Of a stretch of 55,090 nt of DNA, positions 699 through 45,124 are shown in pieces. Location: positions 1 through 55,090 of the forward strand of contig CAIOIZ010000099.1 of the NCBI GenBank assembly GCA_903858475.1, given 5' to 3'. Under the pieces are notes generated by a model that was not told where the DNA came from, did not search any database, and saw only the letters and a list, made by a program, of their open reading frames with translations. Origin of the DNA: an uncultured Bacteroidota bacterium (GTDB taxonomy: Bacteria; Bacteroidota; Bacteroidia; Chitinophagales; Chitinophagaceae). Numbering within the stretch: the first letter of the stretch is position 1; each line of letters starts with the position of its first letter. The translations under genes were made by a program, and so were the position numbers.

Positions 699-2342
699 AT
701 GAAAAAAGAAATATTTCTTCCGCTGACAGCTTTATTTTCTATATTTCTGATTGTATTTTTTTCCTGTAAAAGAGAACTAAGTTTTGAAAGAAAGGACCCA
801 GTTAAAGAATCCAAGTACTGGTTTAATAAGACTTACGATAGATTGCTTACCTTAAAGAATGGAAAATTAGTAGGGGGTAATAATTATCCAGACTGGCGAT
901 TTGCCAAAGTCTATAAACCTAAAGGAAGAATGTATGATATTGTTGAAATGCCCTTATTGCAAAACATAAGACACAGATTAGTATTACAAACAGACAATGC
1001 AGAAAAAAATAACTATAAAATTTCTTCTGTAAAAAAATTATTAATTTTTACTAATGGCAGCGACCATCATTTTGATGCGATTATGACGATTGTGCCAGAT
1101 AAAGAGTTTTTAAAAACCAATTTTGATATATCTACAATTAATACAGAAAATGTACCCTCTAATTTTAACGGATACATTTTATTTGAAAGATTTGATGGTA
1201 GGGCATTGAAGAATTTTAAGTATAAAAACGGTATAATAAAATCTGTTGTTAAATTAACTCCAGTTGCAAACAATAACAATAGCACCAGTGTTCACGTTGC
1301 CCAAATTAGACCGCCTTACATCCAAGACAAATGTACAAGCTGTGAATCATTTTATAATGCTGGTGATGTAATTAGTAATGAAAATGATGGAGCTAATTGC
1401 CAGGGGTTAGAATCAATTTGTGCTATGCTTCAAGACCTCCCACAAAATGAAGACTTAATGTGTGAACAGGATATTTATACTTTGGAATGTAATTGCGGTG
1501 GAATGACTGTAAGTAGTGAAGGTTGTTCTTGGATTATGGAATATTATGGTGATGGGGGTAATGGGGGTGGAAATACTTATAATCCAAATGTTGGAGAAAA
1601 TATATCTGTAGATACATCTATATCAAATAATTTTCCTTGTTTAGATACACTCTTACAGCAAATGCCAAATTGTAATATTGAAGCACAAAAAATACTACAT
1701 AATACTTTTAATGTCAATACTAAGATAAATTTACACTTTCAAATTGATTGGTCAGTTTCTCAAAATTCATTAACAGATGCTGAGACAACACCAGGTACAG
1801 GTACATGGAATACGCCAGAAGGAGGAGTTGATACTATATGGAATTATACTGATACTATAAAACTAAATCCTTACACTATTACAAATGCTGCTAAGGAGTA
1901 TTTAGTAAGTGTTATTTATCATGAAGCTTTCCATGCATATTTAAATTGGCAATTTTATCGAATGGGTGCAGGTGAGGTAGATTCTACTTATATTATTAAT
2001 CGCTTTCCGATATTTTGGACAACTTATTTTACAAGTACTTATACTTCACAGCATGAACAAATGGCATCTTCCTATGTCAATGCATTAGCAGAGCTTGTAA
2101 AATTGTATTATAATCCATTGGCTCCTGATAGTATAAGGAATATAGTTTCAAATAGTTTAGCATGGGGTGGATTAGAAGAAACTACTTCTTGGTTACAACC
2201 TGGTAGAGATACATGCAGAATAAATTCTGATAATCAAACTGCACGAAACTATTTTAATACTCAACAATATTCTTCCACAACCTGTGGAACTATAATAAAA
2301 TCAGCAATTAACGACTTAAAACTATTATCACCATGTCACTAG
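699..2342 (+). CDS. Cassette A lipoprotein with C-terminal HExxH zincin-like domain
   Basis: This 547-residue protein has a short hydrophobic N-terminus ending in FFSC, so Cys23 is the likely lipidation site and the protein should be anchored in the outer envelope. Residues 24-200 form a conserved N-terminal region. A Cys-rich stretch (about 212-276, including ECNCGG) and a Gly-rich linker (284-291) follow. The C-terminal domain (about 300-547) contains HEAFH at 408-412 and HEQMA at 452-456, as expected of a zinc metallopeptidase fold. Residues 1-290 are about 80% identical to the cassette B lipoprotein, but the C-terminal domain is far less similar. This constant-N/variable-C layout recalls polymorphic effectors. 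The proteolytic role is inferred from HExxH only. The last 10 bp overlap the next gene. Confidence 0.75.
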   Translation: MKKEIFLPLTALFSIFLIVFFSCKRELSFERKDPVKESKYWFNKTYDRLLTLKNGKLVGGNNYPDWRFAKVYKPKGRMYDIVEMPLLQNIRHRLVLQTDNAEKNNYKISSVKKLLIFTNGSDHHFDAIMTIVPDKEFLKTNFDISTINTENVPSNFNGYILFERFDGRALKNFKYKNGIIKSVVKLTPVANNNNSTSVHVAQIRPPYIQDKCTSCESFYNAGDVISNENDGANCQGLESICAMLQDLPQNEDLMCEQDIYTLECNCGGMTVSSEGCSWIMEYYGDGGNGGGNTYNPNVGENISVDTSISNNFPCLDTLLQQMPNCNIEAQKILHNTFNVNTKINLHFQIDWSVSQNSLTDAETTPGTGTWNTPEGGVDTIWNYTDTIKLNPYTITNAAKEYLVSVIYHEAFHAYLNWQFYRMGAGEVDSTYIINRFPIFWTTYFTSTYTSQHEQMASSYVNALAELVKLYYNPLAPDSIRNIVSNSLAWGGLEETTSWLQPGRDTCRINSDNQTARNYFNTQQYSSTTCGTIIKSAINDLKLLSPCH

Positions 2343-2827
2343 TAAAAAAAATATCAATCCTAGCAATCCTTATATTTCTTAATTCTACTTTGGCGATTGG
2401 GCAAGAAGATTCTTTACAACAAAAAGAACTTGGCGCTTTTGCTGGAAATATCTCAAAAACTTTGTGGATTCCAAAGGAAGAATTGACTAAGATAAAAAGT
2501 GAGATGTTTTTCGTTTTATTTCACATAAGAGATTTTAAAATTTCTTCATTTGAGATTTTTGCAAATTCAGATACCTTAATAAAAAAATCTGTGAATAATT
2601 TTTTTGAAAACAATTCAAATAAGGTAATATTTAAATATACTCAAAATCATGATTTTGTTGTTTCTTTAGTAATAAAAAATTTGCATCAACCCAAAACCAA
2701 AGAAGTAAATACTGATTACAATTACCTTTTATGGAAAAATGGGAAGATTAAGAGGCCAAATGATATTAAATCAATTTTTAGCTACCCTACTTTTGTTTAT
2801 CTAAGTAGTGGCCAAAATGAAAAGTAA
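2333..2827 (+). CDS. Cassette A small secreted protein of unknown function
   Basis: This 164-residue protein has a clear signal peptide (hydrophobic stretch to about residue 22, cleavage plausible after AIG). It starts inside the end of the lipoprotein gene, so the two are translationally linked. The counterpart in cassette B (6205-6690) has the same position, size and general pattern (signal peptide, an IP..L/I motif near residue 45, then a hydrophobic beta-type core), but its sequence is only weakly similar. By position it could be a cognate partner, chaperone or immunity protein for the lipoprotein. That is inference; no domain was recognised. Confidence 0.65.
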   Translation: MSLVKKISILAILIFLNSTLAIGQEDSLQQKELGAFAGNISKTLWIPKEELTKIKSEMFFVLFHIRDFKISSFEIFANSDTLIKKSVNNFFENNSNKVIFKYTQNHDFVVSLVIKNLHQPKTKEVNTDYNYLLWKNGKIKRPNDIKSIFSYPTFVYLSSGQNEK

Positions 2828-2851
2828 CATGTATAAGTAAAAATTTAACTT

Positions 2852-4141
2852 TTGTTTTATTCATTTGACAATGCATCCTTTTTATTCGCTTTTGGCACAA
2901 TATTTTTTTTAACTATTGTGCCTTTTTTTGATTTTAAACAAAGTAAATACACTTTTACACTTCCGTTGGTTGGTGCAGTAGCATTAGTATTTTTCGGCTA
3001 TAGAACTGCTGCTGTAAGTGCGATAAGTATTTTTGTGCTTTGGGTGTATTTGAAAAACAATTTTAAATTGCAGCTTGCTGTCATTGCCTTGGGTATTTGC
3101 TTGGTTACTTTTTTTATCAAATCAGGATCAACTAGTGGAAGGTGGTTTATTATTAAACGAACAATTGAAATATTAAGAGATAACCCAAACGGCATTGGTT
3201 TTGGGAATTTTAAAGTTGTGTATGGATTACATCAAGCACATTATTTTAAGTCACATTTTATTAATGATACTATTGCGTTAGGTGCCGATAATACTGAATT
3301 TGCTTTGAATGAGTATTTACAAGTAGCTATTGAAGGTGGAATATTCCAGGGGGCCGTATTTCTTTTATTTACAATTCTGTTATTATTCGTAGGTTTTAAG
3401 GTATATAAATTAAAGCAGCAAAAAATATTGCTTGCTTTTATGACAGGTTTTACTGCACTAAGCTTTGCTAACCTTTGGTTTTATATGCTACATAACTATT
3501 GGGTCTTGACATTTTACATTATCTGTGTACTAGGTATTTATTTATTTTTAATATTCAACAAACGTACCGCAACTTCATTTAGTTTTTGTGCTGGCTTAAT
3601 TTTAATCTCAATTACTCTTTTTAAAAATTATAAAAGCAATTTCTTGAAGAAGAAATTGGAAACAGCTTCAACGCTTTCATCTGTAGGATACAAAAGTTAT
3701 GCTGACTCCGTTTTCAAAAGTGTTAATGACGACTCTTTGAATGTGGACTATCAGTTAATTATGGCTAACCATTGTTTAAGATATAATAATCCCGAACAAG
3801 CAATTTTAGAAATGGAAAAAGTAAATAAACAAATAACTAATGATGGAAATTATCTTTTAACTGGAGATGCTTACTTAGCTCTCGGCGATACGTTAAATGC
3901 TATTAAATATTATTTAACTGCTATATACTCTGTACCAAAACGGTTTAGCAGCCGGAAAAAACTTGCAAATGTCTATCAACAAACAAATGATCGTGTTAAA
4001 GAAATATACTGGTTACAATCCATTATTAATTTACCTGAAAAAGTACCTTCGAAAATAACTAAACAGATCAAAGAGGAAGCACAACAAAGATTAATTGAAA
4101 TTGCTCAACCAAAGAGTGCAAATGATCGGCAGTATATGTGA
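2852..4141 (+). CDS. Cassette A shortened O-antigen-ligase-like membrane protein with TPR-like tail
   Basis: This 429-residue protein has about seven membrane segments in residues 8-260. It carries the Wzy/WaaL-type C-terminal signature: a GRW motif (STSGRWFI), then GFGNF and an NEYLQ motif about 60 residues later. A soluble helical region follows (about 270-420) with TPR-like repeats. Full-length family members carry several more N-terminal helices that are absent here. An in-frame stop lies just upstream and the only plausible start is TTG. The cassette B homologue begins at the equivalent TTG, so the short form predates the duplication and is probably functional rather than a random break. 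A role in glycan transfer or export linked to the lipoprotein is possible but unproven. Confidence 0.6.
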   Translation: MFYSFDNASFLFAFGTIFFLTIVPFFDFKQSKYTFTLPLVGAVALVFFGYRTAAVSAISIFVLWVYLKNNFKLQLAVIALGICLVTFFIKSGSTSGRWFIIKRTIEILRDNPNGIGFGNFKVVYGLHQAHYFKSHFINDTIALGADNTEFALNEYLQVAIEGGIFQGAVFLLFTILLLFVGFKVYKLKQQKILLAFMTGFTALSFANLWFYMLHNYWVLTFYIICVLGIYLFLIFNKRTATSFSFCAGLILISITLFKNYKSNFLKKKLETASTLSSVGYKSYADSVFKSVNDDSLNVDYQLIMANHCLRYNNPEQAILEMEKVNKQITNDGNYLLTGDAYLALGDTLNAIKYYLTAIYSVPKRFSSRKKLANVYQQTNDRVKEIYWLQSIINLPEKVPSKITKQIKEEAQQRLIEIAQPKSANDRQYM

Positions 4142-4145
4142 GTGA

Positions 4146-4259
4146 TACAAGGGATGCAAAACAGCCATCGGCTTTTATGAAATACTCGGATATAAGGTTT
4201 GCGGAGAAGAATTTGAGGAAGTAACCATACCGCATTACCTGATGGAGAAAAAATTATAA
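4146..4259 (+). pseudogene. C-terminal remnant of a GNAT acetyltransferase
   Basis: A 37-codon open stretch ends at TAA 4257-4259 and contains AIGFYEILGYKV, then GEEFEE and IPHYLMEKKL. This is the typical last strand and tail of GNAT N-acetyltransferases. No start codon or acetyl-CoA-binding region precedes it; the frame is closed by a stop at 4143, right at the end of cassette A. It looks like the tail of a gene cut off when the cassette moved in. The call rests on motif recognition only. Confidence 0.6.
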
Positions 4260-4287
4260 TAAGGCTAGATATAATAGTAGTTCCGTT

Positions 4288-4767
4288 TTATTGTCGCTTG
4301 ATTTTGGCTGCCAATATTTTTCTTGCATCAAACACTTCATCATCTGTAAAAGCGTTCTTGGGTATTATAAAAAAAGAGCGGCTATTAAAATATACATGAA
4401 AAAAATGTGGACTTTCCATCCAGTTGCTGAATTTTGACCATTCCCAGCTTTGTGCTCCACGGTCGTTTTCAATTTTAAATTCTTGTTCCAGTAAACTTAC
4501 TTTCAATCGGTCTTGGAAAGTGGCTGCTTTTTTATACACCATGCGGGGTAATAAAAACCAAAAAACAATCATCAATACAAACCACATAACAGAAAAAGCC
4601 AGAAAGGCAAGTGGTTGTATTTTTTTCATATAAAATAATACCCCTGAGAGAATGGCAAATACATTGACCAGGATTATCATAATTTTTATTTCCTTTCGGG
4701 TAATAAAATGATAACGGAGTGCTTGTATTACTTTGTTCTTATCGTAGGTAAAAAATTGGGATATCAT
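4288..4767 (-). CDS. YcxB-like small membrane protein
   Basis: This 159-residue protein has two adjacent membrane helices (about residues 27-48 and 51-74) and a short soluble C-terminal domain with W-x-W-S-x-F and FIIPKxAF motifs, the layout of the YcxB-like C-terminal family. Function is unknown. It is flanked on both sides by the oppositely oriented cassette copies, and a fragment of a second copy lies at the window start. A TATCTTTG box lies only 4 nt before the ATG, so the start is well supported and the transcript may have almost no leader. Confidence 0.75.
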   Translation of the reverse strand: MISQFFTYDKNKVIQALRYHFITRKEIKIMIILVNVFAILSGVLFYMKKIQPLAFLAFSVMWFVLMIVFWFLLPRMVYKKAATFQDRLKVSLLEQEFKIENDRGAQSWEWSKFSNWMESPHFFHVYFNSRSFFIIPKNAFTDDEVFDARKILAAKIKRQ

Positions 4768-4771
4768 TGCG

Positions 4772-4779
4772 CAAAGATA
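4772..4779 (-). promoter_or_regulatory. TAnnTTTG box abutting the YcxB-like gene
   Basis: Read on the minus strand this is TATCTTTG, a match to the Bacteroidota -7 consensus, 4 nt upstream of the ATG. A -33 box is not obvious. The short distance implies a leaderless or nearly leaderless mRNA. Confidence 0.45.
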
Positions 4780-4892
4780 AGGAGATGAGGAATTGGATGG
4801 AAAGCTGGGATGGATTACGTTAAACTATATAGTATCGTATTTGTGAATTAGTTCTGGTCGGTGGAGATACCGATTGAGTGAGAGGGTACATT

Positions 4893-6152
4893 TTATTGTA
4901 AAATAATATTAAGTCGCAATTTAGCATACATTTTAATCTGTTTAGTTATTTCCGAGGGAACTTTTTCAGATAAATCAACAATTGATTTTAACCAAAATAC
5001 TTCTGCTTTAATATTATTTGTCTGTCGATAAATATCAACAAGTTTTTTTCTGCTTATAAACCGCTTAGGTACAATGTACACAGCAGTTAAATAACATTTA
5101 ATCGCATTTACAGTATCTCCAATAGCTAAGTAAGCATCACCTGTTAAAAGATAATTTCCATCATTAGTTACTTGCTTGTTTACTTTTGCCATTTCACTAA
5201 TTGCTTCGGCTGCTTTGTTATAATTTAAATAATGGCGGGCTTGCTTTACTTGGTAGCCAATATCCGCTGAGTCTTTACTAACATTTTTAAAAATAGAGTC
5301 AGCATCATTTTTGTAACCTACTGATGAAAGAATTGAAGCTGTTTCTATCTTCTTGTATAAGAAATTATGTTTATAGTTTTTAAACCCAATAATTGAAATC
5401 AAAATTGAGACTGCTAATAAAGCAAAAAAAGTGGCGAAGCGTTTATAGAGTAATAAAGAACAATAAATCCCTAATGCACAGATAATATAAAATGCCAAGA
5501 CCCAATAGTTATGTAACATATAAAAAGTTAGGTTAGCAAAGCTTATCCCTGTAAACCCAGTAATAAAGACAAGTAATAGTTCTTCTTGCTTTCTTCTGTA
5601 CAATTTAATTCCTACAATTAATGTTATGATTGTACACAAAAAAAATAACACTCCATAGAATACTCCACCCTCAATCGCTATCTGTAAATATTCATTAAAT
5701 GCAAATTGCGTATTCTCTGCACCCAAAGCAATAGCGTCATTTATTGGGTGCGATTTAAAGTAATCAGCTTGATGTAACCCATAAGTAACTTTAAAATTTC
5801 CAAAACCAATACCTTTTGGGTTCTCCTTTAGTATCTCAATAGCCCTTTTAGTAATAAACCATCTGCCACTAGTTGAACCTATTTTTATAAACAAAGCAGC
5901 AACGCAAATAATTAAAGCAATAGCACCATATTGCCATCTGAATTTATGTTTTAAATACAGCCAAAGTGCAAATATCCCTACTGCACTTAATGAAGCAGTC
6001 CTAAAACCCAAGTATAAAAGAGTAATTGTAAAAATTAAAGGGATAAGGTAGAAATACTTTGATTTAGGAAAATAAAAAAAAGGCACAATAGTTAAAAAAA
6101 CTATTGTACCGAATGCAACTAAGAATGAAATATTAGTAAATAAGTAAAACAA
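4893..6152 (-). CDS. Cassette B shortened O-antigen-ligase-like membrane protein with TPR-like tail
   Basis: This 419-residue homologue of the protein at 2852-4141 is roughly two-thirds identical over the membrane part. It has the same STSGRWFI, GIGFGNF and FNEYLQ motifs, the same seven or so membrane segments and a helical TPR-like C-terminal region (about 265-415). It also begins at TTG and lacks the N-terminal helices of normal ligases. It is the last gene of cassette B, 52 bp after the small secreted gene. Keeping an intact frame in both copies argues that the short form is used. Substrate and partner are unknown. Confidence 0.6.
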   Translation of the reverse strand: MFYLFTNISFLVAFGTIVFLTIVPFFYFPKSKYFYLIPLIFTITLLYLGFRTASLSAVGIFALWLYLKHKFRWQYGAIALIICVAALFIKIGSTSGRWFITKRAIEILKENPKGIGFGNFKVTYGLHQADYFKSHPINDAIALGAENTQFAFNEYLQIAIEGGVFYGVLFFLCTIITLIVGIKLYRRKQEELLLVFITGFTGISFANLTFYMLHNYWVLAFYIICALGIYCSLLLYKRFATFFALLAVSILISIIGFKNYKHNFLYKKIETASILSSVGYKNDADSIFKNVSKDSADIGYQVKQARHYLNYNKAAEAISEMAKVNKQVTNDGNYLLTGDAYLAIGDTVNAIKCYLTAVYIVPKRFISRKKLVDIYRQTNNIKAEVFWLKSIVDLSEKVPSEITKQIKMYAKLRLNIILQ

Positions 6153-6204
6153 GGATTACTTTTTGATACATATAAGTGATTTTCAATTTCACTAATAACA
6201 AATA

Positions 6205-6690
6205 TTATTGAGACCTACTTATCTCAGTTCTAACACTTCGTGTCATTTGTAAACAAAAGAACGAATTGTATTTAGAAAGGGATTTACATAAACCGGAAAA
6301 ATCATTATACTTGGTATACGCCTTAGGCCTGTTTGTAGGTAATCTTGAGCTATTTATAATACCTAACCCGATAGTAAAATTACCTCTGAGAAGTGAAAGT
6401 GTTTTGTAATTCAAGAATTTATTACTTAATGATGCTTGTATGAATGGTAACAATTCCGATTCTTGAGAACCAAGTACAATTAAGCTTATTAAAACAGAGT
6501 CTTTAATTGCAAAAGCTACAATAAAACTTTCTTCATTTATTTTTCGCAATGATGAATCAGGAATCATAATATTTTTCATAATTAAATCTGTCATTACTTC
6601 AATATCCTTACTTTTCAATAATGAATCTTGAGCATTACCTTTCACTCCTATTAAAAAAAGGGTTATAAAACCTAAAAGTAAATTTTTCAT
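6205..6690 (-). CDS. Cassette B small secreted protein of unknown function
   Basis: This 161-residue protein has a signal peptide (hydrophobic stretch to about residue 20, with NAQ as the likely cleavage site). It lies 7 bp after the cassette B lipoprotein gene. It matches the cassette A protein at 2333-2827 in length, position and the early IP-x-x-x-L/I pattern, but the sequence is much more diverged than in the flanking genes. That is what one would expect if it co-evolves with the variable C-terminal domain of the lipoprotein. No known domain was recognised. Confidence 0.65.
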   Translation of the reverse strand: MKNLLLGFITLFLIGVKGNAQDSLLKSKDIEVMTDLIMKNIMIPDSSLRKINEESFIVAFAIKDSVLISLIVLGSQESELLPFIQASLSNKFLNYKTLSLLRGNFTIGLGIINSSRLPTNRPKAYTKYNDFSGLCKSLSKYNSFFCLQMTRSVRTEISRSQ

Positions 6691-6697
6691 AATTATA

Positions 6698-8353
6698 TTA
6701 ATTACAAGGTAAACTAAGTCCTAATTTATTTCTATTAAGTGTATCTGCTGAGCAAGCAGATGTAGCAGGGAAAATAAAAGTTGAATATGCATTTCTGGCA
6801 GACACACTTTGATTATTGACAGTGCAAGTATCAATAAATCCAGGAAATCGCCATGCGGTTGTATTATTTAGACCGCCCCAAGCTAAATTATCAGAAACGC
6901 TATTTCGTAATTGAGTTGAGGCAGATGGGTTAAAGTATGTTTTAATTATTGTGCTAATTCTATCTCTATAAGCCAATGCCATTAATTCATGCTCTTGTTG
7001 TACACTAGGCAATAATGGGAATTGATAAAAGTCCCAAAAAATTGGAAATTCATTAATAAATGTAGAAGTAGATATAAACCCAGCTAAATACTGACTATAT
7101 CTGTAATTAATGTAAGCATGAATTGCTTCATGAAAAATAGTGGCTATTAAATATTCCTTTGTTGATCTATTTACGACATAAGGATTTAGCATAATCGTAT
7201 CTCTAAACGAAAAAAATGAATCAGTGCCATTATTAAATAAGTGTTTTATGCCTATACCTGGTAGTGTATAAGCATCTTCTATACTGAGGCTATCTAGACT
7301 TCGGTCAATAGCAAATGTTAAGTTAGATTTTGTATGTACACCAAAAATGTCATCAATAATTTTTTGTGCGGTAATATTGATGTCCGAAAAATTTTGAAGC
7401 AGTGAATCTAAGCATGGATAATGTGAAGAAATGGAAGTATCTATAATAATCATTGAACCTTGATCTGGATTGTATGTATCGCCACCCCCATCTCCCTCAT
7501 CACCATAATATTCCATAATCCACGAACACCCTTCACTACTCACAGTCATACCCCCACAATTACATTCCAAGGTATAAATATCCTGTTCACACATTAAATC
7601 CTCATTTTCTGGAAGATCTTGAAACATGTTACAAAGGGATTCAAATCCTTGGCAATTAGTCCCTTCATTTTCATTACTAATTACATCACCTGATGTGAAA
7701 AATGGTTCACAGGTTGAACATTTATCTTGCAAATAAGGAGGTCTGATAACAGCAGCATCTATGCCGGTAGTGCTGTTATTAAATGCAAGAGGAGTCAATT
7801 TAACAACAGATTTTATTTTACCATTTTTATACTTGAAAGTTTTTAATGGTCTGCCGTCAAATTTTTCAAATAAAATATATCCATTATAATTAGAAGGTAC
7901 ATTTTCGGTGTTTATGGTAGATATATCATAGTTGGTTTTTAAAAATTCCTTATCAGGCACAATCGTCATTATCGCATCAGAATGGTGGTTACTGCCATTT
8001 GTAAAAATCAATAATTTTTTTACAGATGAAATTTTAAAATCATTTTTTTCTGTGTTACTCGTTTGCAATACTAACCGGTGTTTTATTTTTTGTATCAGGG
8101 GCATTTCTATAATATCATACCTTCTACCCTTAGGTTTATAAACCTTGGCAAATCTCCAGTCTGGGTAATTATTGCCGCCAACTAATTTTTCATCTTTCAA
8201 AGAAAGCAATCTGTCGTAAGTCTTGTTGAACCAATATCTTGATTCTTTAACAGGATCTTTTCTTTCAAAACTCATTTCTCTTTTACAGGAAAAGAATACA
8301 ATTAGAAATACAGCAAGCACGGCTGTCAGCGGAAGAAATGTTTCTCTTTTCAT
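6698..8353 (-). CDS. Cassette B lipoprotein with C-terminal HExxH zincin-like domain
   Basis: This 551-residue paralogue of the protein at 699-2342 has the same FFSC lipobox (Cys23), N-terminal region, Cys-rich block (residues 251-280 identical in both) and Gly/Asp linker. The C-terminal domain keeps HEAIH at 408-412 and HELMA near 454-458, as well as the DTI-LNPY and LAWGGL motifs. Elsewhere it differs strongly from copy A. The two proteins therefore share a constant carrier region and a diversified catalytic-looking region. The probable location is the outer envelope. Whether it acts on other cells, the host envelope or nutrients cannot be told from sequence. Confidence 0.75.
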   Translation of the reverse strand: MKRETFLPLTAVLAVFLIVFFSCKREMSFERKDPVKESRYWFNKTYDRLLSLKDEKLVGGNNYPDWRFAKVYKPKGRRYDIIEMPLIQKIKHRLVLQTSNTEKNDFKISSVKKLLIFTNGSNHHSDAIMTIVPDKEFLKTNYDISTINTENVPSNYNGYILFEKFDGRPLKTFKYKNGKIKSVVKLTPLAFNNSTTGIDAAVIRPPYLQDKCSTCEPFFTSGDVISNENEGTNCQGFESLCNMFQDLPENEDLMCEQDIYTLECNCGGMTVSSEGCSWIMEYYGDEGDGGGDTYNPDQGSMIIIDTSISSHYPCLDSLLQNFSDINITAQKIIDDIFGVHTKSNLTFAIDRSLDSLSIEDAYTLPGIGIKHLFNNGTDSFFSFRDTIMLNPYVVNRSTKEYLIATIFHEAIHAYINYRYSQYLAGFISTSTFINEFPIFWDFYQFPLLPSVQQEHELMALAYRDRISTIIKTYFNPSASTQLRNSVSDNLAWGGLNNTTAWRFPGFIDTCTVNNQSVSARNAYSTFIFPATSACSADTLNRNKLGLSLPCN

Positions 8354-8396
8354 ACAGCTGTGTTTTGATGGTTATTAAAAAGGTATATTTTCATAG

Positions 8397-8420
8397 ATGT
8401 AAATGTATAATTATTTACAT
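8397..8420 (-). promoter_or_regulatory. Near-palindromic element upstream of cassette B
   Basis: In gene orientation the element reads ATGTAAAT-AATTATAC-ATTTACAT and lies 43 bp before the lipoprotein start. It matches the element at 481-504 in 23 of 24 positions, and a short AGAGTT just upstream is also shared. It is a plausible operator or promoter that controls both cassettes. Confidence 0.55.
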
Positions 8421-8510
8421 GAAACTCTACTAGAATTTGTTCTATCATATCATAAAATAATTACTACTTTAAATTTCATAAGTTTGCAATTAATTTTTGA
8501 ATTAAAAAAG

Positions 8511-12494: not shown

Positions 12495-12935
12495 ATTCTG
12501 TGAGTCAAACGTGGTGGGCATTTGCACACTTTTCCCCAAATTTTGAAAAAAAATGTTTGTTATAAATCTTGGATATTTCACAAAAGTTACTTGTTGAAAA
12601 AAACAGCCCTGTATTTAATATGAAACCCTTTGCCAACAAGGGTTTCAAAGAAAATCGCAGTTTTATATTTCGAATTCAAAACATACATAAAAATCCAAGC
12701 TTGATAATCGAGAAAAAAAGGCTCAGGCATAAATGCCATTTTTTTAAAATTTAAGGAAGGAGCAAAGAAAAATACATTTTTCATGCTGGTTTTTAAGGGT
12801 TGCCTAATCACTGTTTAAACTTCTATTTTTTCTCCAATAAGGGAGGAATGAAATGGTTGCAATACAAAAAATGGGTAACCTTATTTTTATATAAAATGCC
12901 CTTCTGGTTTTATGAAATGCTACTTATTCCAATAC
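12495..12935. other. AT-rich intergenic region between nrdJ and dtd
   Basis: This stretch lies between divergently transcribed genes. It is AT-rich with many poly-A and poly-T runs. Short open frames here have no start context, composition or motifs that suggest genes. I see no RNA gene or clear hairpin. Confidence 0.5.
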
Positions 12936-37266: not shown

Positions 37267-40200
37267 TTATTTGCCTTTAATCAGTAATTGAATACCACTT
37301 GCAATATTTACTAGCCCACCAGTATAAGTAGTTACAGAACGCACCGAAGTATTGGCACTTAATACAGGGTAATTAGTCAACCCTGCAGGAATTACTACAT
37401 CACTGTATTGGTCGGGCAAGGCGCCACAGCTCCAATTGGCTGGATCCATCCAATTAGTACTTTGAAAACCATTCCAAATAAAATTAAATCGAAGCGTACG
37501 TTCATAATCTGGATTACCATTCACCAAACAACGGTATTTGTTGCCGGTAGTGCTGGTAGGCAGATTAATCAGTTGCAGCGTAGCAGTAGTGGCACCTGCA
37601 TAATTGACCCCATTGCTAATATTCGTATACCCTACTCCGTTATTTTCTTGCCATTGATAAGTACCTCCACCTGTAGCGGTATAACTAATCGTACTGGCAG
37701 GACAGTTACTGGCAGGAACAGGTGTAATCATGGCTCGGCTAAACCAATGTTCACTGAATTCATTGACAGAAAACTCGGCATAATAACCATCGCCATGTGG
37801 AATAATCTGCGTATTAGCGGGAAAAATAAATTGGTAACTGCCAGCCAAATTATCGGCGAGGGTGCCATTTTCTTCTGCTTGCAAACCGCTGTATTTTGTT
37901 ATCCCTAATTCATACGCATCGCTCGGTTTGCCACAGCTTGCACAACCACTCGCATTGATCAGCGCATTGATTTCACTGTCTTTAAAATACAAACGAACAC
38001 TCACTGGCTGACTAGGTATATTTTCTGCTCTAATGGAGTAATTGCGATCGAGATAATATTCATTACTACTATTTCGAACTATCCCACTCGGGTTCATATA
38101 AAGGTTCATGTTGACAGCCCCTAAATTTTGGCCATGCGGATTCATTTCACCCATTATATAATAAGGACCTACTAAGACATCGCCCCATGTAAATGGAATC
38201 CAATCATTACCTGATACTGGCATTACAGCAGTTGTTAGTGCCGGAGGAACAACAGCAATAGCTAGTTTTTCATGAATGCGAATATCATCAATACCGATAC
38301 CTTCTAAATTTAATCCTGCGTCGCTGCTCATTACAAATCGAATGCGAATGATGCCTGCAGTACGTGGTAAAGAAATGCTGGCTACATGCCACTTGTTGTT
38401 TGATACACGCCAATTATCAACCCCTGCATTATCGTACCAATTAGTGCCCTCTCCTACAGCGCCTAATTTGTTCCATACATTGCTATTGCCAACGCTGTAT
38501 TCAACCCAGGCATAATCATAATCGGTTTCAATTTCAAAAAAATGACTGAAGGATAGCACGGCTGCATTCAATGAACTGATATCAAAACAAGGTGAATAGA
38601 GATAGGAAAATTCATTTTCAGTATAGGTACCGGTTAAATTAGTAACGAAGGCTTTGCTACCATTGGCGGCTTTATTCATGATGGTTTTAGCAGGAGTACC
38701 CCATTGCCAACTACTATTCGAACCTTTTGCATACCAGGAGCCAGCACTGCTTTCAAATCCCTCCATATAAGGATAGCTCGTGATAATGGGAGAAGTATGT
38801 ACTCGATAATCTAAAATACTATCATTATTGCTATAGGTATCGCCAGTTGCTGTTAACCAACAATCAAACTTATAATCATTATCAACTGCAAGATTCGCAT
38901 TGACTGGAAAAGTATATACTTGTGTGCTATTTGCCGCGATACTAGTAATAGTATTTGTTACAGGGGCTGCTCCATTAATTCGGTAGGCTATAGGCACATT
39001 GTTAAAAACGGTATTGCTGTAATTTTTTATTTTAACAGCTACTTGTACTGATCCATAGCTGCCACATCCATTTAATATAGGAGATACCATTTCAGAAATG
39101 GCCACATCATTAGTAGCCGATACTAAGCGAGTGTCGTCAAAAGTATATCCATCATCTTGATCCAATATAGGATTAGGTACATTGGCAGAAGTACTTCCTT
39201 GTTGTACTATTTTAACTTGAAAACTACTGCTAACAGGTTGAACAGGAAGTACCGTATCCAATATATCGTTTATATTGATGATGGCTTTTTTCCAAGCGCC
39301 TAAGTCGCCCTGATTGGCCACTAAGTCATACGCCAAGACCCAGGGCTTGCTATCGCTTCCTCTCATCCATATTTTGTTATTTGGATTGGCGGCCTGGCCA
39401 TGATTTTTATAATAAAAATCATAACGGAGTTGGTTACCCGAAATATAATTACTAAGGTTATAGGTTAATAAAAGGCTATCCGTCACTATCGCTCCCAAGG
39501 GCGTCTGATCGAGCGTAATGGCACGATTCCCGGTGCGGGCAAATCCAGTGTTCACAAATGTTCTAGCCCTGCTCCTATTTTGCTCGGTTTTAAAATCGAG
39601 TCGGTCATCGCCATTCAATCCAATTGTATTGGATTGATAGTTTTCGATAGTAGTCGTTTCAAATCCATCAGTTGATGGCAATGTAAGCGCTGCATTCGCG
39701 AGCTGTTTGATGGTTGCATACGCGGTGTCATCACTGGGTTGCGTATCACCAGCCCTAGTGACCCATACTTTAAAATTATAAATACCGGGTGTCAATAAAT
39801 TTGCGGTACTAGTAAATGTATAAGTATAAGTAGACAAGGAGGGAATGACTACGGATGTATTTTCCGTAATAATGGAACCTCCATTAATTTGATAGGAGAG
39901 TGAATAAGTACCACTACTACTAATATCATCTAAGTTTTTAATGGTCAGTTTAACTGGTTCTATGCCTGTTTTAGCGCTAGCAGTATTTTCTCTTCCTGTA
40001 TTCGGTGCATCCAAGCTTACTGCTTTAAAATCGTTGTCAAAAGCAGATAAATTACAGGTGCCAGATGCTGCCATCCCCGATTCGGCCAAGGATTGCCTTC
40101 CAATGACTGTACCATTTTTAGCACGCACTGCAAACCAATTAGTAAGGCTAGGATTTAGATTACTGATATTGAAACTAAGCGTAGTAGTATTGCCGATAAC

Positions 40201-42489
40201 CGACATACTATCGCCTTTGAGTTGCAGCACATCATACGAAGTAGCACCAGTAGCAGCTGACCAGCCCAATTGGATATACCCCTCACACAAAGTAGTCATG
40301 GCGTTGATGACCGGCACGCCTAGAATATTAAAATTGGCATCACTGTTATCTGCATAAGCAGTATTATTTCTACTTACCCTAACCAAAGCTTGATTGGTAA
40401 TGCCTGCAGGAACCGTCCAAACATAACTGCGAGCAGTAGACGCAACCGAATTATTAATTACAGTCCAACTACTCCCATTATTATCAGAATATTCAATGGT
40501 AAAATTTTCATTCTCGCTGCCATAGGCAGTCCAGCGCAATGTTTCTGTTTCACCTGGCACAAAATGCTCGCCACCAAATGGATATTCAACAGTAACCCCG
40601 TTCATGTCTATTTGGTAAGTAACATAATAGCTTTGTGGCCCCTGTGGAATAGCAAATCCATTCACATTTACTGTAAAAATTCCTGCAGAAGGATTATCGA
40701 TGACTACCTGCTCAATATTATTAATATGGTCAATTCCTTCGGTAGCAGCGTTATCAACTCCTGCTGGAGAAGAATCTAAAATAAGCGGCCGATGCAAAAT
40801 AACAGAAGGTGTTGTTACAGTAAGATCCAAGTCATTCACCAATGCATTGGCTGTATTGGGTGTAGCCGGGTAGTCGTTCCATACCAATAGCACACGCAGT
40901 CGTCTTGCGCCCGAAGGAACTGTAATTCCGAATGATTGATTTTGCGTGTTTGCAATACTGTTAGTATAGTATTGGTTGCCCTCCATTGCTTCAATGGCCT
41001 TACGCACATTAAGCATACCAAAACCAAATTTAAAGTCAGGACCCGGATTGCCCAGGTCTTCTGCATTGTTACAAAGCAAGGCCTTTACCAAAGCAGCTTT
41101 AGCATTAGCCCCAGCATGTAATTGCCGATATCTTTCTTGGAGGAGTGCTGTTGCACCGGTAACAACAGGAGCAGCCATACTGGTTCCAAAACTCAATCCA
41201 TATGTATTAATAGGATAAGTAGAATAACTAGCACCATTAGACGTAATTTCTGGTTTAATGCGGCCATCTTTAACTGGGCCACGACTACTATACAAGGCAA
41301 TATTATAACTCGCCTGATCCATGCTACCTACTGTCAAAACATTCTTGGCAGATTGCCAACCTGATTTAACAGTTGCAAATCCCTGTGGATAGGGTGTACA
41401 ACCTAAACTTCCATCATTGCCAGATGCTATCACATGCAATACTTCATCATAGCTGCGCATTTGAGCATCTATATAATTACTCAATGCGTCATATACCCCT
41501 TCTCCAGGGCATCCCACCGCTACCGAATAATAAGAATTATTTGTTGCTACTATATTATTATCTGTCACATAAGTAGGCGTGTTTAATAAAACATCGCTGA
41601 ACCACTGCGAAATAATACCTGCTTTGGGAGCAATGCCTTTGCGCTTAGGGTCAATCAAACCTCCACCCGCTGCAGTACCGGATGTATGCGTACCATGATA
41701 ATCCATACCAAAAGGGTGACGCAAGATGGCACGGCCAGTAAAATCAATATGACCACTTGTAATATCAGCATTGTCACCTACACCAATGGTAACATTGCGA
41801 CCCAATAAATTGCGACCACTCGGAGATTGCAAACCACTTACCCCATGAGTACTTGTATTATTATAATTTATAGGCTTGTCTTTTATTGATTGCGCTGCAA
41901 TATAATTGACAAAAGGCAAGGCCGCAATTTGATGGATGGCAGTTGGAGCTGGTTGAATCAACAGACAATTACTAAGATTGAATTTATCTACTTGCACCTG
42001 TAAGCCCAATGATTGCAACGTTGTTGTTGCCAACCCTTTATCCGCATTTGAAAAAAGGCAAACCACCCAATATCCAATATCATTTTTATCTGCTATTCGA
42101 TGATAGCCAGATAACCCGTTTTCTATCTTGTATTGTGTTGGCACAGGCACAATGGTATTTATTCCAAAACGACTAAGGTTGGAAAAATCAACATCAATGT
42201 TTATGCTGGCGAAAAATGCATGATCTGGTATATAAGACTCCAAATAAATGCCTGCCAACTGTAGACTGTTTTTTGTATTCGCATCTGGCAATTGATTGAA
42301 CTGTATGAGTACATAGTATCGATTGCCCCAAATAGCAGCTTGAAGACTTTCTTTCCTGAATGTTTGATTGCTGATATTATTAACCGTGACAAAATCGCCA
42401 TTAGCAAAATGAATAGGCCTGCTGGGGGGCTGAGCAAACGCCGCAAAACTGAAAAAAAAGCTAATAATGAATAAGTAATGTTTCTTCAT
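37267..42489 (-). CDS. Large secreted subtilisin-like serine peptidase (S8)
   Basis: This 1740-residue protein has a signal peptide (1-19, ending AFAQ). Residues 20-200 look like a propeptide. The S8 catalytic domain spans about 225-500 with Asp239 (GVGDNADI), His265 (DYHGTHTSG), Asn358 (ASGNDG) and Ser437 (GTSMAAP). A long C-terminal part follows: a beta-sandwich, a fibronectin-like region near 720-790, adhesion-type and MAM-like domains (about 1020-1350) and an Ig/PKD-like domain near the end. It should be secreted and degrade proteins outside the cell. No recognisable T9SS sorting domain closes the protein: it ends at a short repeat (LVNIASGIQLLIKGK). It may use an atypical signal or be truncated at the end. 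Confidence 0.88.
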   Translation of the reverse strand: MKKHYLFIISFFFSFAAFAQPPSRPIHFANGDFVTVNNISNQTFRKESLQAAIWGNRYYVLIQFNQLPDANTKNSLQLAGIYLESYIPDHAFFASINIDVDFSNLSRFGINTIVPVPTQYKIENGLSGYHRIADKNDIGYWVVCLFSNADKGLATTTLQSLGLQVQVDKFNLSNCLLIQPAPTAIHQIAALPFVNYIAAQSIKDKPINYNNTSTHGVSGLQSPSGRNLLGRNVTIGVGDNADITSGHIDFTGRAILRHPFGMDYHGTHTSGTAAGGGLIDPKRKGIAPKAGIISQWFSDVLLNTPTYVTDNNIVATNNSYYSVAVGCPGEGVYDALSNYIDAQMRSYDEVLHVIASGNDGSLGCTPYPQGFATVKSGWQSAKNVLTVGSMDQASYNIALYSSRGPVKDGRIKPEITSNGASYSTYPINTYGLSFGTSMAAPVVTGATALLQERYRQLHAGANAKAALVKALLCNNAEDLGNPGPDFKFGFGMLNVRKAIEAMEGNQYYTNSIANTQNQSFGITVPSGARRLRVLLVWNDYPATPNTANALVNDLDLTVTTPSVILHRPLILDSSPAGVDNAATEGIDHINNIEQVVIDNPSAGIFTVNVNGFAIPQGPQSYYVTYQIDMNGVTVEYPFGGEHFVPGETETLRWTAYGSENENFTIEYSDNNGSSWTVINNSVASTARSYVWTVPAGITNQALVRVSRNNTAYADNSDANFNILGVPVINAMTTLCEGYIQLGWSAATGATSYDVLQLKGDSMSVIGNTTTLSFNISNLNPSLTNWFAVRAKNGTVIGRQSLAESGMAASGTCNLSAFDNDFKAVSLDAPNTGRENTASAKTGIEPVKLTIKNLDDISSSGTYSLSYQINGGSIITENTSVVIPSLSTYTYTFTSTANLLTPGIYNFKVWVTRAGDTQPSDDTAYATIKQLANAALTLPSTDGFETTTIENYQSNTIGLNGDDRLDFKTEQNRSRARTFVNTGFARTGNRAITLDQTPLGAIVTDSLLLTYNLSNYISGNQLRYDFYYKNHGQAANPNNKIWMRGSDSKPWVLAYDLVANQGDLGAWKKAIININDILDTVLPVQPVSSSFQVKIVQQGSTSANVPNPILDQDDGYTFDDTRLVSATNDVAISEMVSPILNGCGSYGSVQVAVKIKNYSNTVFNNVPIAYRINGAAPVTNTITSIAANSTQVYTFPVNANLAVDNDYKFDCWLTATGDTYSNNDSILDYRVHTSPIITSYPYMEGFESSAGSWYAKGSNSSWQWGTPAKTIMNKAANGSKAFVTNLTGTYTENEFSYLYSPCFDISSLNAAVLSFSHFFEIETDYDYAWVEYSVGNSNVWNKLGAVGEGTNWYDNAGVDNWRVSNNKWHVASISLPRTAGIIRIRFVMSSDAGLNLEGIGIDDIRIHEKLAIAVVPPALTTAVMPVSGNDWIPFTWGDVLVGPYYIMGEMNPHGQNLGAVNMNLYMNPSGIVRNSSNEYYLDRNYSIRAENIPSQPVSVRLYFKDSEINALINASGCASCGKPSDAYELGITKYSGLQAEENGTLADNLAGSYQFIFPANTQIIPHGDGYYAEFSVNEFSEHWFSRAMITPVPASNCPASTISYTATGGGTYQWQENNGVGYTNISNGVNYAGATTATLQLINLPTSTTGNKYRCLVNGNPDYERTLRFNFIWNGFQSTNWMDPANWSCGALPDQYSDVVIPAGLTNYPVLSANTSVRSVTTYTGGLVNIASGIQLLIKGK

Positions 42490-42904: not shown

Positions 42905-45124
42905 ATGAAAACCTTCCTACTAATTTCGCTATTTTTTTTACAGTCCAATATATCATTCTCACAGGTAGCTGTACTATCCGGGGGAGCAGGTGCGCCTGCA
43001 GGTAGTGGTGAAAATGGAGCAAATAATATGGGTCTTCCAGCAACGGGACTGGGTTGCGGTGGTGGTGCAGGTAGTTGGTGGGGTGGAACAGGCGGTGCTG
43101 GAAAATATGGTGGCGGTGGCGGTGGTGCTGGTGGTTATTTTGGCCTTGGCTCCATCAATTGGGCAGGCGGTGATGGAGGACAGGGGGTAGTAGTAATTGC
43201 GTTTTACAACGGAGTTAGTTTTGTAAATTCAGTAGTATTAATAGAGGGGTCATCTGTAACTGTTAATAGTGGCATTACCTCCGCTAAGGTATGGGCCATT
43301 GGTGGTGGTGGAGGTGGTGGTGGTGCCACAGAAAATGATGGCACATCTGGTGGAAGTGGTGCCGCTGGTGGTGTAGCCTATATTACCAAAGCAGTAAGTG
43401 CTGGAAATATTATTTCCTATTCAATTGGAAGCGGCGGACTGCCTGGAAATGGCTCTATAAATGGAGCTGCAGGAGGCACTACTTCAGTAACAATTGCCGG
43501 TACAACTATTTATGGATATGGCGGTGGCCCAGGCTTATATAATGATGTATCCAGTCCTTCAGGTGGAAGTTTTTTAGGTGGCGATGGTGGTGTTGCTGGA
43601 GGTAATGGTTATGGAAGATCGGGTGATGTTGGCGGAGGAGGTGGTGCTGGCATTGGAGGGGCTAATGGTACACAGGCCTCAATTGATGGTGGTACAGGGG
43701 CTAATGCTATTGATGTAGCAGGATTATTTGCGGCCTGTGCAACAGCACCTAATCCAACAGCTCCTACACTAAGTTCTTTTACACCTACTACCGGTTTAAG
43801 TGGCACGAACGTTACAATAACAGGCACCAAATTTACAGGTGCAACAGCCGTCTATTTTGGAGGATATGCAGCTAGTTCATTTACGGTGGATTCCGATTTG
43901 CAGATAAGCGCCACCGTTAGTCCAAGTGCTGTTACCGGAAGCGTGAGTATTACATTGCCAACAGTAGCAGTTTCAAAACCTATTTACTTTGTGTCTGCGC
44001 CGGTTGCACCAACCATTGGTTCATTTTCCCCAACAAATGCTGCTAATGGAGTTGAAGTAACCATTAATGGGGATAAATTACTGGGCACTACCAATGTTAG
44101 TTTTGGCGGCACCAACGCTGCCTCATTTAATGTGGTATCAGACTTCAAAATTGTTGCCATCGTAGGCTCGGGTAGTGATGGCAATGTGAGTGTTAGCAGT
44201 TCAAGCGGAACGGGAATACTGGCTGGCTTCACTTGGCTAGCTACTACAGCAGCAGCTAATATAGTTTTCTCAACCATTCAAGAAACGCAGCTAACTATAT
44301 CATGGAGCAATGGCAATGCAGCAAAAAGAGCAGTATTTGTAAAAGAAGGAACTGGTGCCATTACCAATCCCACAGATAATATTACCTATACGGCCAGTAG
44401 CGACTGGACTGCAAAAGGAACAGCCTTGGGTAGTTCAGGTTATTATTGTGTTTACAATAACAGCGGGAACAGTATTACATTAACAGGGCTAACTGCCAAC
44501 ACACTATATATAGTACAGGTATTTGAATACAACGGTAATGCTGGAGCAGAAAAATACTATCTATCTACTGCTATCAATAACCCCAATAGCCAAACAACCG
44601 CTACACTATTGCCCGTAAGCTGGATTGATTTTATTGCCAAGACACAAAATGACAATGTATTACTGAATTGGAGTACTGCTACTGAACAGGACAGCAAAGA
44701 CTTTACTGTACAAAAGAGCAACAATAGTATCAACTGGAATAATATTGGGACCGTTCCTGCTTCGCAAAATAGTCAAACAGTAAAAAACTATACATTTATT
44801 GACACTCACCCATTGCAAGGAATGAATTATTACAGGCTGCTACAACAAGATCTAAATGGAAGAAATGGTTATAGCAAAATTATAAATGTGAAATTTGCAG
44901 GACAATCATCAAAAGTCTTCATCTATCCTAATCCGGTAGTAAATGGCACATTCAATATTCAATTGGAAAATGCAGGTACTGCACAATTGTTTAATACCAA
45001 CGGATTATTAATTTGGAATAAAGCCCTGCCTGCAGGAACTCAAAAAATAAATACATCTGCCCTTAACAAAGGTTTGTATATTTTAAGAGTCGTAGGAAAA
45101 TCAATTCCCATCAACATAGAATAA
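42905..45124 (+). CDS. Glycine-rich surface protein with IPT domains and T9SS sorting domain
   Basis: This 739-residue protein has a signal peptide (1-19, NISFSQ). Residues 20-250 are a glycine-rich domain with long Gly runs and a V-T-V-x-S-G-x-x-x-x-K-V-W-A-I-G-G-G-G pattern as in bacterial adhesins. Two IPT/TIG domains follow (about 285-365 and 367-445, each with TGLSGTNVTITG or NGVEVTINGDKL), then a fibronectin-like domain (about 450-565). The last 160 residues fit a T9SS sorting region: LPVSWIDFIAK, a cargo-type beta domain, then VFIYPNPVVNGTFNIQL and a closing GLYILRV. It is predicted to be exported by type IX secretion to the cell surface. The substrate is unknown. Confidence 0.88.
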   Translation: MKTFLLISLFFLQSNISFSQVAVLSGGAGAPAGSGENGANNMGLPATGLGCGGGAGSWWGGTGGAGKYGGGGGGAGGYFGLGSINWAGGDGGQGVVVIAFYNGVSFVNSVVLIEGSSVTVNSGITSAKVWAIGGGGGGGGATENDGTSGGSGAAGGVAYITKAVSAGNIISYSIGSGGLPGNGSINGAAGGTTSVTIAGTTIYGYGGGPGLYNDVSSPSGGSFLGGDGGVAGGNGYGRSGDVGGGGGAGIGGANGTQASIDGGTGANAIDVAGLFAACATAPNPTAPTLSSFTPTTGLSGTNVTITGTKFTGATAVYFGGYAASSFTVDSDLQISATVSPSAVTGSVSITLPTVAVSKPIYFVSAPVAPTIGSFSPTNAANGVEVTINGDKLLGTTNVSFGGTNAASFNVVSDFKIVAIVGSGSDGNVSVSSSSGTGILAGFTWLATTAAANIVFSTIQETQLTISWSNGNAAKRAVFVKEGTGAITNPTDNITYTASSDWTAKGTALGSSGYYCVYNNSGNSITLTGLTANTLYIVQVFEYNGNAGAEKYYLSTAINNPNSQTTATLLPVSWIDFIAKTQNDNVLLNWSTATEQDSKDFTVQKSNNSINWNNIGTVPASQNSQTVKNYTFIDTHPLQGMNYYRLLQQDLNGRNGYSKIINVKFAGQSSKVFIYPNPVVNGTFNIQLENAGTAQLFNTNGLLIWNKALPAGTQKINTSALNKGLYILRVVGKSIPINIE

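Follow-up and report, generated by a model that had tools for sequence, protein, structure and literature searches.

Two facing copies of a predicted lipoprotein toxin locus in an uncultured Chitinophagaceae bacterium

What might two copies of one gene trio, facing each other on a single contig, do for the bacterium that carries them? The trios lie on contig CAIOIZ010000099.1 of an uncultured Bacteroidota bacterium of the family Chitinophagaceae (assembly GCA_903858475.1; genome G000). The window, by which we mean the whole stretch of 55,090 nucleotides (nt) that was analyzed, is that entire contig, C99 of a draft genome that is 96.07% complete. Each trio encodes a lipoprotein with an HExxH motif, a small secreted protein and a membrane protein with Wzy_C (O-antigen ligase) and TPR parts, hereafter the ligase homologue. 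An earlier note on the sequence had described the pair as inverted around a YcxB-like gene, and we confirm this arrangement. In copy A, on the forward strand, the lipoprotein gene (699-2342; 547 amino acids [aa]) is followed by the gene for the small secreted protein (2333-2827; 164 aa) and by a short form of the Wzy_C/TPR gene with a TTG start (2852-4141; 429 aa). Copy B, on the reverse strand, has the same order, with the lipoprotein at 6698-8353 (551 aa), the small protein at 6205-6690 (161 aa) and the Wzy_C/TPR protein, again a short form with a TTG start, at 4893-6152 (419 aa). Gene order and lengths are kept between the copies, as the note had said, but the overlap that it had also described as kept is not, since the first two genes overlap by 10 nt in copy A and are separated by a 7-nt gap in copy B.

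We read each trio as a lipoprotein polymorphic toxin locus with a predicted toxin, a reading to which we give a probability of roughly three in four. The lipoprotein itself is best read as two parts, a conserved carrier that ends at about residue 300 and, joined to it, an exchangeable tip. The carrier comprises a type II signal peptide (SC, Cys 23 in copy A), an N-terminal domain and a linker that is Cys-rich in copy A, and it occupies residues 1-299 in both copies (699-1595 forward and 7457-8353 reverse). The tips are SprT-like zincins, with HEAFH at 1920-1934 in copy A (tip at 1596-2342) and HEAIH at 7118-7132 in copy B (tip at 6698-7456). Taken as a whole, the system seems to be built of two units, carrier plus ligase homologue and tip plus small secreted partner. 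The exported zincin-like effector with a partner that the earlier note had proposed was close to this, but the fusion of carrier to tip, the pairing of a probable immunity gene with the tip and the linkage of the ligase to the carrier had been missed.

Uneven divergence of the two copies

The key observation beyond the earlier note is that the two copies are unevenly alike. Over their full lengths, the lipoproteins are 64% identical, the small proteins 27% and the ligase homologues 65% (65.4%). Within the lipoprotein, residues 1-290 of the carrier are 81.7% identical and the tips 42.7%, and the small proteins are 28% identical from residue 21 onward. In 150-nt windows of a global alignment (copy A coordinates), nucleotide identity is 75-85% at 750-1649, 45-57% at 1650-2787 and 60-83% at 2788-4137, which marks 1650-2787 on the forward strand as the likely exchanged segment.

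Synonymous divergence follows the same pattern: it is 0.98 in the carrier and 0.93 in the ligase homologue (dN 0.228, dS 0.925), rises to 1.8 in the tip and is saturated in the small gene. Because synonymous sites jump in the tip and the small gene, rapid protein change alone does not account for the drop in identity. We therefore claim a cassette-like divergence, for which exchange is the likely cause; the claim of exchange draws on the jump in divergence and not on tree topology. The locus of a genome of the same genus (G079) served as a comparison for both copies. Its carrier is 28-30% identical and its ligase homologue about 32% identical to those of the window, and tip B shares 52.0% identity with the tip of G079 and 42.7% with tip A (column bootstrap 0.99; 0.98 for the small protein).

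Carriers, tips and partners in related genomes

A carrier profile (A4) matched 25 of 394 genomes of the family, the window's own included, and one stretch was fetched and mapped from each of the 24 others; the match in G461 (L077) falls in a kinase and is probably spurious. A broader profile (A8) matched 19 of 395 genomes of the phylum, 18 of them besides our own, and two of its matches (L117 and L118) are weak, extend barely beyond the signal peptide and are probably false. Many of the loci come from draft or metagenome assemblies. A first single-sequence scan of named genomes returned no relatives. A single-sequence search with the lipoprotein in 147 related genomes found matches in 7, our own included. 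The match is nearly full length in G079 (locus L080), restricted to the N-terminal part in G006 and G064, and restricted to the tip in G059 (L081), G023 (L082) and G069 (L086). Searches of the window's own genome turned up no lipoprotein, N-terminal domain or tip of this kind beyond those of copies A and B. The lipobox Cys is invariant in all 14 aligned carriers, with S, G or A before it and K, R, Q or H after it. A PDB sequence search with the carrier gave no credible match (nothing below E 0.19), and the window lipoprotein matched no family at E 0.1 in NCBIfam, a library that presumably includes the TANFOR toxins discussed below.

The zincin assignment of the earlier note holds at the level of the motif and less well at the level of the family. 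Across 16 aligned rows of zincin tips, H408, E409, H412 and two cysteines are invariant and H452 is present in at least 90%, but the window tips score 21.8 and 20.5 bits against the SprT-like family (PF10263), short of its cut-off of 25.6. The best PDB match to the tip profile was projannalysin, at E 0.12.

We compared tips and partners across 28 loci, 25 with a carrier domain and 3 with a zincin only. These were drawn from 32 lipoprotein genes, listed after dropping L077 and L016 (the same proteins as L015 on another contig), by omitting L063, L070_1 and L073, which have no partner in reach, and L071, whose tip is too short; L068 was retained despite a neighbor that looks Ada-type by eye. The tips fall into 12 clusters at a phmmer E value of 0.001, a count in which remote kinship may merge some clusters. 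Zincin tips also occur on N-termini that profile A4 does not match (L011 and L012), possibly remote kin of the carrier. Cultured strains with a zincin locus include Mucilaginibacter oryzae DSM 19975 (L092) and Sediminibacterium ginsengisoli DSM 22335 (L085). Among ten phylum carriers scanned against Pfam, L115 has a Peptidase_M23 tip above the cut-off (8.4e-14), which also matches endolysin families (best 5.9e-11), and L109, whose carrier profile match is E 4e-14 over residues 100-213, has a DUF6973 tip above the cut-off (8.8e-20) with a weak wnt match (0.022). An M35 zincin tip in L108 lies below the cut-off (2e-5), L102 and L104 have weak C39 matches in their tips, and the other five carriers gave nothing above cut-off, as did ten carriers from the family. 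Motifs of the forms HxH..SxxD (JAMM-like) and NCxxFAL (papain-like) could be read by eye in tips without a Pfam match above cut-off. No nuclease family scored above cut-off among the tips scanned; there was one sub-threshold EME1-MUS81_C match, in L010 (E 0.025).

The partners of the same 28 loci form 19 clusters, and they do not assort freely with the tips. Both tip and partner are alike in 12 pairs of loci, the tip alone in 27, the partner alone in 1 and neither of them in 338; the 12 doubly alike pairs compare with a maximum of 8 in 5000 shuffles (0/5000). The small gene thus pairs with the tip, and it is a probable immunity gene, to judge from this co-segregation. Consistent with a secreted product, the N-terminus is hydrophobic in 26 of the 28 partners. 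Across 20 named loci, a same-strand gene with a hydrophobic N-terminus lies close downstream of 25 of 26 zincin open reading frames, versus 27 of 90 control genes in the same stretches, although one of the 25 (the 427-aa neighbor in L087) is probably unrelated, by eye. An overlap of exactly 10 nt was found in 8 of 51 focal gene pairs and in 0 of 56 control pairs. None of ten partners scanned had a Pfam match above cut-off. Beyond G079, a search for relatives of the small protein returned two marginal matches, in G045 and G080 (E 0.005 and 0.01), genomes in which the lipoprotein was not found.

Related genomes also contain tips that stand without a carrier. Mucilaginibacter oryzae (L092) has two copies of a 229-nt linker stretch, 97% alike (at 9777 and 11297), and a third copy of a 111-nt part of it at 91-92% (at 12734); each linker copy precedes a different zincin tip with its own secreted partner. 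L088, L090 and L093 contain orphan zincin tips as well, and in L092, L090 and L088 the orphan tip comes with a partner. PMC3482391 counts standalone recombining toxin cassettes among the signs of polymorphic toxins. Alleles within one genome can show the same break that separates the copies in the window. Two genes in a Sphingobacterium locus (L091) are 96-100% identical for about 500 nt, after which identity drops over some 200 nt to about 45% or below, and two genes in G894 have a carrier and linker in common (69-100% over the first ten 100-nt steps) with unlike tips, their partners being identical at 42 of 143 positions.

The ligase homologue and the flanks of the trios

The third gene of the trio follows the carrier and not the tip. 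Among the 15 carriers with E values of 1.1e-20 or lower, the ligase homologue lies within four genes of 14; in L064 it lies upstream of the carrier, and in L063, also one of the 15, the contig stops 319 nt downstream. The corresponding count for weaker carriers is 1 of 14, in a set in which some loci are cut by contig or fetch ends. Together with the small gene after 25 of 26 zincin frames, this bears out the view of the earlier note that the three genes belong together, since homologues of the lipoprotein are not mostly solitary or beside unrelated genes. Of 27 genomes that bear a carrier, 17 had matches to a ligase profile, 22 in all; 16 of these matches lie at carrier loci, among them two on like contigs of G064, and 6 lie elsewhere. 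In the single-sequence search, 4 of 147 genomes matched, our own included, and all of them bear carriers. One of the 7 matches lies away from carrier loci, in our own genome, where contig C125 (about 4593-5888) encodes a distant, long-form relative.

Across 14 loci, carrier distances and ligase distances are correlated (Spearman 0.60; 1 of 5000 shuffles as high), also when copy B is left out (0.63; 12 of 5000), a correlation that could come from shared host ancestry as well. Carriers of the same tip class are hardly closer to each other. A fixed trio bound to the zincin can be set aside, since no ligase match was found in the genomes of the zincin-only loci L011, L012 and L013, and the ligase homologue is present near carriers that bear other tips.

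Against the Wzy_C family (PF04932; cut-off 31.7 bits), copy A scores just under the cut-off (E 4.9e-7, 30.1 bits), copy B above it (E 5.1e-8, 33.3 bits) and the long form in L015 well above it (1.7e-15, 57.5 bits), and PDB matches to the protein fall in the TPR part only. By our own grouping on length, 8 of 15 sequences are short forms, in which the first part of the protein is absent. When aligned with the short relative in G006, the TTG starts in the window differ from its ATG start by one codon at most. We considered whether the short form is a decayed gene; however, the ratio of dN to dS between copies A and B is about 0.25, so that the short form appears to be under constraint, and the room upstream is only 24 nt in copy A and 52 nt in copy B. 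A single origin of the short form is unsettled, as the ligase tree needs three changes between short and long forms, but its starred branches force only one. Classical Wzy_C ligases have a catalytic His in the periplasmic loop; at what we take to be its aligned position, all 15 sequences have another residue. The Arg of an SxxGR motif and the Asn of an N(D/E) motif are kept in all 15, which makes some active-site function plausible.

Two arrangements at other loci concern this gene. A transposase-like gene (171 aa, by eye) stands between partner and ligase homologue in G064 (L015, 6249-6764; L016, 11595-12110). In Olivibacter (L088, 318-2844), a ligase homologue (E 1e-37) and a lipoprotein-like gene are divergent from the zincin gene, so that ligase neighbors may exist outside this carrier family.

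Two inverted repeats, one of 982 nt at 81% and one of 1085 nt at 75%, extend over the trios. The YcxB-like gene between them (4288-4767, reverse strand; PF14317, E 1.7e-10) gave no evidence of membership in the system, although YcxB was not searched for beside the carriers of relatives. A partial copy of it at the contig edge (1-177) is 94% identical to 4446-4622. The end of contig C11 of our own genome (79000-82217, L134) carries a gene that looks GNAT-like by eye together with part of a YcxB gene, and it has an exact 91-nt overlap with the start of the window; a 92-94% copy of the GNAT tail and YcxB lies at about 4156-4622 of the window. If the two contigs adjoin, trio A would be flanked by two direct copies of one flank, as if inserted or duplicated. 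Beyond the main repeat, a 33-nt inverted pair (473-505 and 8396-8428; 91% alike) lies 5' of both lipoprotein genes and is possibly a shared control region. Elsewhere in the window, a very large subtilase-family protein (37267-42489; 1740 aa, PF00082 7e-32) has as its neighbor a protein carrying a Por secretion tail (42905-45124; PF18962 5.4e-9).

Alternative explanations and known systems

How would such a locus work? As a toxin, the lipoprotein would be exported and then tethered by the N-terminal cysteine, most probably to the outer membrane, with its N-terminal domain as the carrier or escort part. The toxin would be delivered by contact, and its SprT-like zincin tip is predicted to cleave an envelope protein of the neighboring cell, while the small secreted protein would act as an immunity protein that blocks the tip in the periplasm of the producer. 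Tip and immunity gene would move between carriers as a single cassette, and if they move as a unit, the two copies would give the cell two specificities. The Wzy_C/TPR protein would be a dedicated accessory of the carrier, most likely for maturation or display, perhaps by adding a glycan. It seems to us rather doubtful that it acts as a transferase devoted to the carrier, attaching it to a lipid-linked glycan, lipopolysaccharide or capsule for display or hand-over.

Several results weigh against a polymorphic toxin locus. Among the 39 pairs of loci with alike tips, 27 have unlike partners, and a further pair of loci is alike only in its partners; our reading has to suppose that these genes diverge fast or that partners are replaced. 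Two of the 28 partners look unsecreted (L064 and L068), the orphan tip in L093 has no partner after it, and the window's own genome contains no orphan tip. The window's own proteins match no known toxin family above cut-off. Constraining a nine-tip tree to unite tips A and B is not rejected (p value of the approximately unbiased test, p-AU, 0.18), and the grouping of tip B with G079 has a support of just 50/9.

The loci might instead encode a secreted or membrane protease for feeding or envelope upkeep, with the small protein as its chaperone or safety inhibitor and with ordinary divergence behind the variability. The recognizable tip families, mostly hydrolases, suit this account, as do the 27 alike tip pairs with unlike partners, yet it leaves unexplained why one carrier bears many dissimilar tips, why orphan tip-partner arrays stand behind copied linkers, why alleles of one genome have like N-termini and unlike tips, and why synonymous divergence jumps; we consider it unlikely. 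We find it very unlikely that the lipoprotein is a variable surface glycoprotein, glycosylated by the ligase homologue, with a variable end that evades phages or grazers and the small protein as an export partner. Such a role would accord with the lipobox, the variable outer part and a Wzy_C homologue that is mostly beside carriers and diverges with them. However, surface variation does not require tip and partner classes to go together, and the tips keep enzyme-like motifs (HExxH in 16 of 16 rows, and the M23 match). The chance that we are looking at a plain operon duplication with a housekeeping role, in which relaxed constraint on the tip and small gene produced the uneven divergence, is slighter still. 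The flanks are duplicated as well, and descent of both tips from one ancestor is compatible with the tip tree, but the jump in synonymous divergence is not a product of relaxed protein constraint, and the same break is seen in relatives (L091 and G894).

Another alternative accepts toxin and immunity protein, and is compatible with our preferred reading of a polymorphic toxin locus, but makes the Wzy_C/TPR protein a membrane receptor, a chaperone or a second protective protein. We would put this at somewhat less than an even chance: the residue other than His at the presumed catalytic position in all 15 sequences and the eight short forms speak for it, while the clear Wzy_C match of the long form in L015 and the Arg and Asn kept throughout speak against it. 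A phage origin was rejected, as neither the window lipoprotein nor the small protein matched PHROGs at E 0.01 and the ligase homologue matched one weak family of no assigned function (6.7e-3). So was an origin in a known defense system, for which PADLOC returned only a weak type III restriction match to the small protein (1.3e-3, 14.8 bits, 73 residues) that we take to be chance.

To our knowledge, how close kin fight by contact is poorly known in most Bacteroidota beyond the type VI secretion system and a few bacteriocins. The toxin loci that we propose would be a defined, widespread candidate for such competition, with modular tips apparently acting in the envelope, and the window offers a natural experiment, two alleles in one cell with carrier and ligase in common and with different tips and probable immunity genes. 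The ligase linkage is the surprising part. If true, a toxin-dedicated polysaccharide-ligase homologue would tie glycan transfer to toxin display, and a glycan-coupled carrier would be a new deployment of polymorphic toxins in Bacteroidota, assembled from two exchangeable units.

How new is the system? The ligase homologue belongs to the known Wzy_C family by its above-cut-off matches in copy B and L015, and it departs from typical members in its added TPR part, its residue other than His at the presumed catalytic position in 15 of 15 sequences and its short forms. HExxH zincin domains are known as toxin tips, as here, from Tox-MPTase1-5 and other families (PMC3482391); unlike here, the five Tox-MPTase families are typically found on RHS repeats, and the word SprT is absent from the portion of that paper examined. 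TANFOR toxins of Bacteroidetes (PMC7073777) likewise combine an exported N-terminal domain with variable C-terminal toxins and downstream immunity genes; unlike them, the present proteins have a lipobox carrier and no nuclease tip above cut-off, and the NCBIfam search gave the window lipoprotein no match.

The earlier note's suggestion of an undescribed system survives in part. Toxins with a lipobox, an N-terminal Cystatin-like domain and several tips were predicted as a distinct polymorphic system in 2025 (PMC12419801), and SitA toxins are established (PMC5562445, PMC8546572). The Cystatin-like toxins resemble those predicted here in their lipobox, conserved N-terminal domain, several C-terminal tips and membrane or periplasmic immunity protein. 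Their Min-Wnt tips fit L109, if DUF6973, which the portion of PMC12419801 seen does not name, corresponds to Min-Wnt; papain-like tips are possibly common to both sets, given the weak C39 matches here. The window carrier may belong to the same family as their Cystatin-like carrier, as L109 suggests. In contrast, that portion mentions neither a SprT-like zincin tip nor a neighboring Wzy_C ligase for these toxins, its passages on O-antigen ligase, WaaL and Wzy are unrelated to them, and their most widespread immunity proteins are BamE-like. In the literature searched, which was partial and without supplements and so does not show absence from print, we found no description of the zincin tips or of a dedicated ligase.

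The best functional model is SitA/SitI of myxobacteria (PMC5562445, PMC8546572). SitA carries nuclease tips with a cytoplasmic site of action, whereas the recognizable tips here are mostly hydrolases expected outside it; the partners here appear secreted and the accessory is a Wzy_C/TPR membrane protein, unlike in the SitA system. As described, however, SitA is likewise a lipoprotein with an N-terminal escort domain, an exchangeable C-terminal toxin and a downstream immunity gene, and its accessory gene SitB and the 11-bp overlap of SitB with SitA recall the accessory gene and the short overlap found here.

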